NCBI RefSeq assembly: GCF_014863405.1
Contig: NZ_JACZZA010000019.1
Span: 1-55,544 of the forward strand
Length of the DNA stretch: 55,544 nucleotides
Reading direction: 5' to 3'
Source: Dyella acidiphila
GTDB taxonomy: Bacteria > Pseudomonadota > Gammaproteobacteria > Xanthomonadales > Rhodanobacteraceae
The notes beneath the pieces were generated by a model. It ran no database searches and had not been told where the DNA came from. It saw only the letters and a program-made list of their open reading frames with translations. The position numbers and the translations under genes are program-made. Each line of letters opens with the position of its first letter. Position 1 is the first letter of the stretch. Positions 9,130-25,201 of the stretch are shown one piece after another.

Positions 9130-9978
9130 CTAAGTGTGATGCAGTTCACCTAATCGCTGACCAAGCTTGATCACCTGCTGCGAATTCATGGCATCGAGTT
9201 CGGCCATGCCTTCGGGCAGCAGCACGATCACGGTGGAGCCCATGTTGAAGCGTGCCATCTCGGCGAAGCGTTCGAGCGTGATGTTCTGCCCGGCGAAGGA
9301 TTTGCGCCGGATCGACGACGCATACGGCGGAATCACCAGGCCGTCCCACACGGTGGCGACCGAGGAGACCAGGATCGCGCCCACCATCACCAGCACGAAC
9401 GGGCGGCCGTGCTCGTCTTCGAAATGGCAGACCAGGCGCTCGTTGCGCGCGAACAGGCGCGGGATCGCTTCCACCGCAAACGGCGCCACGCTGAAGATGC
9501 GGCCCGGTATATGCACGGTCTCCTTCAGCTGGCCGCGCAGGGGCATATGGACTCGGTGATAGTCACGCGGCGAGAGGTAAATGGTGACGAAGCGTCCGTT
9601 GCGGTAGGGGGCCGCGGCGGCCTCGTCACCCAGCAGTTCGGCGGCGGTGTAGTCCTGGCCCTTGGCCTGGAATATGCGTCCGCCGTTGATCGGACCCGCC
9701 TGGCTGATGCGTCCGTCGGCTGGCGAAAGCAGTGCGGCCGGCGCCGCATCAGCACGGCGGGCATCGGGGCGCAGCTTGCGCGTGAAGAACGCATTGAAGT
9801 GGGGATAGGCAAACGGATCGGACTGGGCGGCCTCGGTCATGTCGACCTGGTAGCTGCGCACGATCTGGCCGATCAGGAAGTTCTTCCACGGTGCAAAAGT
9901 CCAGCGTGTGGCCCAGTACACCACGCGCGACAAGGCCCGATGGGGAAGGATGTATTGCAGGAATACCTTGAAAGTCAT
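9130..9978 (-). CDS. psd: Phosphatidylserine decarboxylase proenzyme
   Basis: Psd converts phosphatidylserine to phosphatidylethanolamine at the inner membrane. The 282-aa proenzyme cleaves itself and the new N-terminal serine becomes a pyruvoyl group. The self-cleavage site is FNMGSTVIVLLP, between G247 and S248, leaving a 35-residue alpha chain. The catalytic aspartate (SPADG) and histidine (YHRVHMPL) of the family are present, as are GAILVSSV and the membrane-interacting N-terminus (LQYILPHRALSRVVYWATRW). It is divergent from the cupin gene at 10045. Confidence 0.96.
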   Translation of the reverse strand: MTFKVFLQYILPHRALSRVVYWATRWTFAPWKNFLIGQIVRSYQVDMTEAAQSDPFAYPHFNAFFTRKLRPDARRADAAPAALLSPADGRISQAGPINGGRIFQAKGQDYTAAELLGDEAAAAPYRNGRFVTIYLSPRDYHRVHMPLRGQLKETVHIPGRIFSVAPFAVEAIPRLFARNERLVCHFEDEHGRPFVLVMVGAILVSSVATVWDGLVIPPYASSIRRKSFAGQNITLERFAEMARFNMGSTVIVLLPEGMAELDAMNSQQVIKLGQRLGELHHT

Positions 9979-23109: not shown

Positions 23110-23979
23110 ATGAATTGGCTGCAAAAAATCATGACCCCGCGCGCGCGGACGCAAAGCTCCGCGGCCGGCAAGGGCAAGGTGCCCGAAGGTGTGTGGGAGA
23201 AATGCGCAGGTTGCGGTGCGGTGCTGTACCGGCCGGAGCTGGAGCGCAACCTCATGGTGTGCCCCAAGTGCAGCCATCACCACGCGATCGGTGCGCGCGA
23301 GCGCCTGCTGGCGCTGTTCGACGAAGGCAGCACGCAGGAACACTGGGCCAATCTGGAGCCCACCGATCCGCTGAAATTCCGCGATTCGAAGAAATACCGC
23401 GACCGCATCGTCGCCGCGCAGAAATCCACCGGTGAAAAAGATGCGCTGATCGCGCTGAGCGGCAAGCTCAAGGACAAGCCGCTGATGGCGGTGGCGTTCG
23501 AGTTCTCCTACATGGGCGGCTCGATGGGTTCGGTGGTGGGCGAGAAATTCACCCGCGCCGCCGAGCGCGCGCTGGCCGAACGCAGCGCACTGGTGTGCTT
23601 CTCCGCCAGCGGCGGTGCGCGCATGCAGGAGGCGTTGTTCTCGCTGATGCAGATGGCCAAGACGTCCGCCGCCCTGGCGCGGCTGCGCGAAGCCGGCGTG
23701 CCTTACATCAGCGTGCTGACCGACCCCACCACCGGCGGCGTCTCGGCGAGCCTGGCGATGCTGGGCGATATCAACGTGGCCGAGCCGAAGGCGCAGATCG
23801 GCTTTGCCGGCCGGCGCGTGATCGAGCAGACCGTGCGCGAGACCTTGCCCGAAGGCTTCCAGCGCTCGGAGTTCCTGCTTGAGCATGGTGCGATCGACAT
23901 GATCGTCGACCGTCGCGAGATGCGCGACAAGCTGGCCGACGTGCTCAACATCCTGCGCAAGGTGCCGCGCGCGGCGTGA
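23110..23979 (+). CDS. accD: Acetyl-CoA carboxylase carboxyltransferase beta subunit
   Basis: AccD joins AccA to form the carboxyltransferase that makes malonyl-CoA for fatty acid synthesis. The 289-aa protein has an N-terminal zinc ribbon (C32, C35, C51, C54), and a crotonase-fold catalytic part with [38 protein letters not shown] and [20 protein letters not shown]. In many relatives accD is followed by folC; here a terminator and a 600-bp gene-free stretch follow instead. Confidence 0.97.
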
Positions 23980-24031: not shown

Positions 24032-24060
24032 TCTCAACCGCTCTTCCGGCTTGCCTTTCG

Positions 24061-24216
24061 CCCTCTCCCTTCGGGGAGAGGGCCGGAGTGAGGGGGCGCG
24101 CTTGCGCGCATCTGCATCCTTGCACCGAATGAGTGGCCGAAAGAGTGCTGCAGCGGCGATGTTCCTTCGTCGCAAAATTGCCTCTCACCCCAACCCTTCC
24201 CCGAAGGGGAGAGGGA
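24061..24216. repeat. CCCTCTCCC-type intergenic inverted repeat
   Basis: Left arm 24061-24095 (CCCTCTCCCTTCGGGGAGAG... then GAGTGAGGGG) and right arm 24181-24216 (CCTCTCACCCC... then CCCCGAAGGGGAGAGGGA) are imperfect inverted copies around about 85 bp. Each arm also folds on itself. Similar elements are at 26962-26983 and, with a different loop, 44221-44376. Confidence 0.75.
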
Positions 24217-24232
24217 GCAACAGCGCATTGGG

Positions 24233-24545
24233 TTTTCCACAATAAATGTGGACGGCCTCTGGACAAGCCTGTGGAAAAGCCTCCGATCACATTGCGCCAT
24301 CAAGCACTTGGCACGCAGTGATGAAAGTTTGCGCAGAAAGTGCGCGCAGTTTTCCACAGCGACTGTGGAAAGTATCCGGTAGAGCTTGTGGATAGGTGTC
24401 GTATGTCATTGACCGCAAAGTATGTGAGCACGGTGTGACGAACGAATGAGCAGCGCAAACTTTGCGCACCGCTGCGCATGCGTTGCGCGTTGCGCGAGGT
24501 TTTCCACAGCGATTGTGGAAAGCAGCCGGTAGAGCTTGTGGATAG
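24233..24545. other. Three repeated modules of DnaA-box-like 9-mers
   Basis: Within the gene-free stretch 23980-24625, three modules begin at 24233, 24350 and 24500 with TTTTCCACA. In each, an inverted 9-mer starting TGTGGA follows at exactly +14 (24247, 24364, 24514) and another at +37 (24270, 24387, 24537). The third-position sites are TGTGGAAAA, TGTGGATAG and TGTGGATAG, one or two mismatches from the DnaA box TGTGGATAA (complement TTATCCACA). Modules two and three are about 80% alike over more than 100 bp and exactly 150 bp apart; module one is more degenerate. TGCGCA-rich sequence lies between modules. This could be a DnaA-binding locus, but it could also be a hairpin repeat family. Confidence 0.55.
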
Positions 24546-24625
24546 ATGCGCTATGTCGTTGAGTGCAAAGCGTGTGGCTACGGCGTGACGATGAATTGCT
24601 CAGCGCACGCAACAGCGATCGGCAA

Positions 24626-25201
24626 CTACGCCAGCAACTGCGGTGCGCTGTGCACCAGCCACAGCGACAGGCTGCCCAGGCCGCTGCCGACCACGATCGC
24701 AGCCAGCACGTCGCTCGGATAATGCAGCCCCAGAATCACCCGCGATGCCGCCACCAGTGCGGTGAAGGTGAGCAGCAGCGGCGCCAGCAGCGGATACCAG
24801 GCCAGCGCCACGATGGTGAAGCCCACCGCTTGCAGCGTGTGACCGGAGGGGAAGCTGAATTCGTCCAGCGGCGGCACATGGGCGATCACGCCGGGGCAGG
24901 TGCGGAACGGACGCGGACGGCGCGTCCAGCGCTTCAGGATGCGGTACAGCAGCAGCGCGACCAGGCCGGTGGCGGCCATGTGGGCGGCGGCTTCCAGGCC
25001 GCGGCGACCATCGATCAAAACCAGCGCCAGCATCAGCGCGTACCAGAAAATGCCATCGCCGAGACGGCTGACGATACCGAAGAACAAACCTACTGCATGC
25101 CGCGCACCCCAGCGATTGGCGGCGATGCACATGCGGCGGTCGAACGCATGGCGGGGCAGGGCAACCTGGTCAGGCAGGTGCGATGGTGACATGGCGCTCA
25201 T
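24626..25201 (-). CDS. PAP2-family membrane phosphatase
   Basis: The 191-aa integral membrane protein has the three PAP2 motifs: KRWTRRPRP, FSFPSGHT and SRVILGLHYPSDV. Members remove phosphate from lipid phosphates such as phosphatidic acid, phosphatidylglycerol phosphate or undecaprenyl diphosphate. About five membrane segments are visible. Its 5' end overlaps the preceding glycosyltransferase gene by 32 bp (23 bp from the second ATG at 25192), so the two form one transcript. A shared role in phospholipid or glycolipid metabolism is inferred from this pairing. Confidence 0.9.
   Translation of the reverse strand: MSAMSPSHLPDQVALPRHAFDRRMCIAANRWGARHAVGLFFGIVSRLGDGIFWYALMLALVLIDGRRGLEAAAHMAATGLVALLLYRILKRWTRRPRPFRTCPGVIAHVPPLDEFSFPSGHTLQAVGFTIVALAWYPLLAPLLLTFTALVAASRVILGLHYPSDVLAAIVVGSGLGSLSLWLVHSAPQLLA

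Follow-up and report, generated by a model that had tools for sequence, protein, structure and literature searches.

What is the function of the gene-free stretch downstream of accD in Dyella acidiphila, in which DnaA-box-like 9-mers are repeated at fixed distances? The window analyzed here is positions 1 to 55,544 of contig NZ_JACZZA010000019.1 (assembly GCF_014863405.1). It carries three exact TTTTCCACA-N5-TGTGGA-N17-TGTGGA modules, starting at 24233, 24350 and 24500 (Table 1), and all nine 9-mers were found at the +0/+14/+37 offsets given in the original prediction. Within each module the first box (I) is on the plus strand and the other two (II and III) are inverted, the gaps within a triplet being 5 and 14 bp. 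The absence of genes was also confirmed, since accD ends at 23979 and a PAP2-type phosphatase gene ends at 24626 on the other strand; the two genes are convergent and both end at the array.

Table 1. Positions in the window of the modules, their associated sites and the flanking genes
Feature	Position	Strand	Details
accD, conserved left neighbour	23110..23979	+	NCBIfam TIGR00515 above cut-off; synteny
Module 1 DnaA-box triplet	24233..24278	+	I 24233-24241 (+), II 24247-24255 (-), III 24270-24278 (-); exact pattern
Module 1 stretch before box III	24261..24269	+	GGACAAGCC; family consensus GGNAAAGCC
Module 1 Fis-consensus-like site at +87	24320..24334	.	5/6 key bases; offset from relatives
Module 2 DnaA-box triplet	24350..24395	+	I 24350-24358 (+), II 24364-24372 (-), III 24387-24395 (-); exact pattern
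Module 2 stretch before box III	24378..24386	+	GGTAGAGCT; family consensus GGNAAAGCC
Module 2 Fis-consensus-like site at +87	24437..24451	.	5/6 key bases
Module 3 DnaA-box triplet	24500..24545	+	I 24500-24508 (+), II 24514-24522 (-), III 24537-24545 (-); exact pattern
Module 3 stretch before box III	24528..24536	+	GGTAGAGCT; family consensus GGNAAAGCC
Module 3 Fis-consensus-like site at +87	24587..24601	.	5/6 key bases
PAP2-type phosphatase gene, conserved right neighbour	24626..25201	-	NCBIfam phosphatase matches, all below cut-off; synteny

The middle boxes are weak as DnaA boxes, with two mismatches to TTATCCACA in modules 2 and 3 and three in module 1. Modules 2 and 3 are 150 bp apart, as predicted, but less alike than the 80% or so first estimated, agreeing at 91 of 126 positions from -20 to +105 (72%). 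Over the three boxes they are identical at 43 of 46 positions, module 1 sharing 31 of 46 with either of them; modules 2 and 3 thus seem to have arisen by duplication in tandem and do not count as independent. In modules of the family the stretch GGNAAAGCC is conserved at +28 to +36, directly 5' of box III, and on the opposite strand it reads as half a DnaA box (TTTNCC) about 12 bp from box III. It is possibly a degenerate DnaA box at +25 of which the half-box is the conserved part. Directly upstream of module 1, two inverted GC-rich CCCTCTCCC-type stretches (24060-24092 and 24180-24215) were recognized by eye; they resemble a hairpin repeat of the dispersed kind.

A search of the 5,067,993-base genome with the 21-base pattern of the module gave three exact matches, all within the window, and allowing two mismatches added a fourth copy, with one mismatch, on contig C11. 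The reversed control pattern gave no match in the genome, 100 dinucleotide shuffles of the window gave none even at three mismatches, and no module is expected by chance. The original prediction had called for such a search and named dozens of dispersed copies as the mark of an ordinary hairpin repeat family; the three exact copies and the near one are far from this number in D. acidiphila, yet some relatives hold at least ten.

The conservation of the spacing was determined in 16 genomes of the genus by a search in which each of the two spacers could take 31 values (961 pairs). There were 50 matches, 35 of them at spacers (5,17), that is +14/+37, and 15 at (5,6), that is +14/+26, with none elsewhere and two matches for the control; 15 of the 16 genomes matched, the remaining one being 86% complete. 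Family-wide, 206 of 233 genomes matched, or 179 of 192 when only good assemblies are counted; the control gave 12 matches altogether. In genera g2, g3 and g4 all those among the matches listed were of the +26 form, so that not every relative has a +37 module. From 154 loci, E. coli excluded, 181 triples were obtained: 99 at (5,17), 73 at (5,6), three at (5,18) and six singletons. Second spacers were thus chiefly 6, 17 and 18 (175 of the 181 triples), values one helical turn apart; 23 of these loci had been fetched at the fixed spacing of 17, and others at a fixed first spacer. Across the class 156 of 369 genomes matched, and among the matches listed all but five were (5,6) and none was (5,17). 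Seven of 12 sister-family genomes had a +37 module, three a +38 module and two neither. Each of 17 further genomes of the family, chosen for having matched earlier, had one exact +26 element; G225 had neither a +37 nor a +38 module, and G142 and G227 had +38 modules. The spacing of the module is under constraint, and among the matches listed the +37 form is confined to two families, where it is added to one ordinary +26 element and does not occur in every genus.

The position of the array is conserved as well, a point that had been raised for comparison in sister species. Of 23 named loci, which come from Dyella, Rhodanobacter, Frateuria, Fulvimonas and one unclassified bin, 22 have the array adjoining accD, the PAP2 gene or both; the remaining one is a second site in Dyella sp. 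C11. The wider neighbours are trpB-trpA-accD on one side and PAP2-glycosyltransferase-gltX on the other. This place was found in ten genera of the family (g1, g6, g7, g9, g10, g11, g15, g22, g23 and g26) and was absent at the g5 and g25 loci examined, and neither gene lay beside the module at the sister-family loci examined. The 38 distinct accD-PAP2 spacers held one to four exact modules each, at least one being given by construction as the spacers were found through the pattern, and up to six exact modules occurred at loci where only one neighbour was recognized. In eight single-contig genomes, taken as circular, the arrays lay at 0.28-0.41 of the genome length from dnaA and the ordinary +26 elements at 0.08-0.24. 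With the E. coli origin placed where we presume it to be, the DnaA-reactivating loci DARS1 and DARS2 fall at 0.33 and 0.21, a range that overlaps that of the arrays. The remnant of a plasmid-type origin, one of the identities proposed at first, is unsupported, since housekeeping genes surround the array and ten genera have it at this place.

The modules were then compared with the DARS of E. coli. In the MG1655 stretches that we take, from their gene neighbours, to be DARS1 and DARS2, the boxes of both cores are at +0/+14/+26 and box I faces boxes II and III. The DARS2 deletion primers of PMC4585315, compared by eye, flank exactly the MG1655 DARS2 boxes. According to PMC5742627, DARS1 and DARS2 share their box spacing, with box I opposite to boxes II and III, and DARS sites are notable for the head-to-head contact between I and II. 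The modules likewise are non-coding and have three DnaA boxes, with I and II head to head at +14 and III in tandem with II; downstream, where DARS2 has its Fis site, they have a candidate Fis-type site by consensus. They differ in that box III is at +37, 11 bp or one helical turn farther out, which would keep it on the same face of the DNA; in that the units stand in tandem beside accD; and in that the Fis-type site is at +86/87 and IHF has no fixed place. Among the functions first proposed, a DnaA-reactivating locus gives the best fit, as the order and orientation of the boxes, the +14 distance and the offset of the Fis-type site agree with it, box III at +37 being the part that does not.

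An ordinary +0/+14/+26 element is also present in D. acidiphila itself, upstream of priA (contig C11, 605337-605368; L070, about 9338-9369), with a 6/6 match to the Fis consensus at +86 and a 7/9 match to the IHF consensus at +120. The fourth +37 copy lies about 7 kb from it and corresponds to the second site in Dyella sp. C11. Relatives with +37 modules usually carry one such element too, mostly beside priA in the two families. Within the fetched stretch, a priA match accompanied the +26 element at 57 of 59 loci in this family and at all 15 loci in the sister family; the figures were 10 of 15 for the remaining families of the order and three of seven for the class. These counts are of loci, some places having been fetched twice (the 15 sister-family loci represent 12 genomes). 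Loss of the ordinary element in the sister family was considered and rejected, as all 12 genomes examined retain it with 0-1 mismatch. The single element and the modules have in common the I/II pair and the offset of the Fis consensus, whereas the former usually occurs in one copy, with box III at +26 and an IHF consensus at about +120. The priA-side arrangement recurs through the order and partly through the class and may represent a general gammaproteobacterial DARS. Beside priA and the element, a 429-aa protein (L070:7839-9128) had no match to an NCBIfam family.

An alignment of 112 modules of the family revealed conserved columns well past the boxes, including a dyad at +86 to +102. The Fis-type site was scored with the published consensus GNNYANNNNNTRNNC, which has six key bases, at a threshold of at least 5/6. 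In the first data the best offset was +87 in 111 +37 modules of the family (74 with at least 5/6) and in the +38 modules (4/11), and it was +86 in the +37 modules of the sister family (8/20) and in the +26 loci of the class (7/10). In 12 ordinary elements of the sister family, scored separately, +86 was again the best offset, but only four of them reached 5/6. In 64 +26 loci of the order, +86 (33 with at least 5/6) ranked third, behind two offsets that overlap the boxes. New data were in agreement: at least 5/6 was reached at +86 in 30 of 39 new class +26 loci, 15 of which had all six key bases, against a background of 1.2% (40 loci were fetched, one at a contig end was dropped, and offsets -15 to +46 were left out), in 8 of 8 new +26 loci of the family at +86 and in 12 of 17 new +37 modules at +87, the background of the last two being 1-2%. 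With 300 shuffled consensuses the observed score was never equalled in either of the two larger sets or in all three sets together, and 25 of the 300 scored as well in the sister-family set of 20.

The three modules of the window all have their 5/6 match at +87, a score reached by consensus match at 1.4% of window positions; with modules 2 and 3 duplicated, they offer about two independent Fis-type sites. The fourth copy scores 0/6 and is without a Fis site. In 14 loci of the genus, variation at the six key bases compared with the nine other bases was 0.012 versus 0.135 in module 1 and 0.095 versus 0.286 in module 2; when the set of key bases was slid over these loci, offset 87 was third of 54 for low variation, 66 and 56 being quieter. 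Because of the conserved site at +87, the unit is about 102 bp long, longer than first described. Since the distance from box I to the Fis-type site is maintained whereas box III is displaced, the +37 form gives the impression of the +26 machinery with its third box shifted, not of a simple insertion. The tie to DARS follows from the +26 element that relatives usually also carry and from the Fis-consensus offset of +86/87 that both kinds share.

The first logo had suggested that IHF has a fixed site in the +37 modules, but this was rejected on the new data: the best IHF-consensus offset was +52 in one set and +68 in another, giving no fixed place in these modules. At the +26 loci, on the other hand, the IHF consensus reached 8/9 at +120 in 12 of 39 new class loci and at +121 in 7 of 12 sister-family ordinary elements. 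The order in E. coli DARS2 is IHF-consensus matches first and the best nearby Fis match after them, and the IHF match downstream of the DARS2 core has no counterpart at a fixed place in the +37 modules by consensus search. According to PMC4245941, E. coli DARS2 depends on both its IHF and its Fis sites and loses strength when the IHF site is moved by 5 or 10 bp. Since no fixed IHF place was found in the +37 modules, this need is the strongest point against plain membership in DARS2. The array is classed as a DARS variant and not as a DARS member.

The proteins such a locus would use are encoded in this genome. DnaA is identical to E. coli DnaA at 263 of 445 positions and keeps R399, D433, H434 and T435 (E. 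coli numbering), which we take to be DNA contacts of the E. coli protein. Identity was found at 18 of the 20 positions checked, including D269, R285, L290 and R227. These four residues are named for DARS in the accessible part of PMC5742627, where the two that differ, V211 (I) and R245 (T), are described as residues for single-strand binding at oriC. Fis is encoded as a protein of 95-97 aa (E = 6.6e-13).

Judged from sequence comparison, the array is rather more probably than otherwise a tandem, compact, Fis-linked DARS variant serving DnaA nucleotide exchange. Boxes I and II would be occupied by two ADP-DnaA molecules in head-to-head orientation, and box III, placed one helical turn farther out than in known DARS, by a third DnaA. 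Contact of the AAA+ domains at I/II would loosen ADP, and the freed DnaA could then take up ATP. About 40 bp past box III, bound Fis may stabilize the complex or gate it with growth. The binding of DnaA and Fis, the release of ADP and an effect on the timing of initiation are the predictions of this model.

The main rival is a DnaA-titrating cluster, in which the boxes hold DnaA away from oriC, their number sets the amount held and the geometry only raises affinity through paired binding. The copy number of the locus, which varies from one to six exact modules, suits a sink; a sink needs neither the exact +14/+37 spacing nor a Fis-type site at a fixed distance, and three modules are few compared with the usual DnaA copy numbers. 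Titration of DnaA on the E. coli chromosome is described in PMC12371093, whose boxes, in the part available, are near the origin, whereas the arrays are at the distances from dnaA given above. We consider titration unlikely, while giving it appreciable weight.

A locus like datA, which would promote hydrolysis of DnaA-bound ATP, is improbable. datA, too, is a non-coding cluster of DnaA boxes, one believed to work together with a DNA-bending protein, and it shares with the array, as do the DnaA-box clusters of B. subtilis and Streptomyces (PMC5742627, in part), several DnaA boxes away from oriC. Minimal datA has an IHF site between its boxes according to the same source, whereas the array has fixed head-to-head triplets, a pairing described there as prominent in DARS, and outside the boxes no fixed IHF place was found in the modules of the family.

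Slightly less probable still is a regulatory function, in which the array would be bound by some other protein, or by DnaA acting as a transcription factor on accD or the PAP2 gene. It is flanked by two genes, and it was oriented identically with respect to accD in every examined locus where accD was recognized; the ends of both genes meet at the array, so that neither start faces it, and the sister-family module has neither gene alongside.

The least probable of these readings is a hairpin repeat or RNA element (a terminator or REP-like sequence) merely resembling DnaA boxes. Boxes I and II can pair, the stem of module 2 could reach 9 bp and some relatives have many copies; it was rejected on the pairing count in 123 modules of the family, where positions outside the boxes do not maintain pairing (pairs 2-20, 1-21, 0-22 and 9-13 in 44, 24, 4 and 23 modules, respectively), and it leaves box III and the +87 site unexplained. 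Six Rfam matches (E up to 1) were all well below cut-offs and upstream of the modules.

The retention of such DARS-like modules at one place in at least ten genera of one family suggests an undescribed variation on chromosome replication timing. No report of such arrays was found among the matches listed in the literature on DARS or DnaA boxes in Xanthomonas, Xanthomonadaceae, Rhodanobacter, Dyella, Pseudomonas, Vibrio or Gammaproteobacteria, or at priA, as judged from titles and abstract openings. DnaA recharging outside enteric bacteria is little known; DARS2 has been compared in seven E. coli-proximal species (PMC8682772, in part). It is conceivable, and proposed here tentatively, that a second class of DnaA nucleotide-exchange element, tandem, Fis-linked and with box III one turn out, arose in Xanthomonadales and multiplied to several copies, as many as 14, with retention of the single ordinary element at priA, copy number and position far from the origin tuning the rate of DnaA recharging.

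The arrays are exact, conserved and deletable sites in soil bacteria, for which the ordinary DARS-type element of the same genome provides an internal comparison; natural variants reveal which parts are fixed (I, II and the Fis offset) and which is movable (III). The searches further suggest that a DARS-type core accompanied by consensus sites for Fis (+86) and IHF (near +120) is widespread in Gammaproteobacteria. Copies of the +37 module number from 10 (G118) to 14 (G063) in some relatives, where they are dispersed or in several arrays; in G063 they are located downstream of accD, upstream of trpB and near priA.
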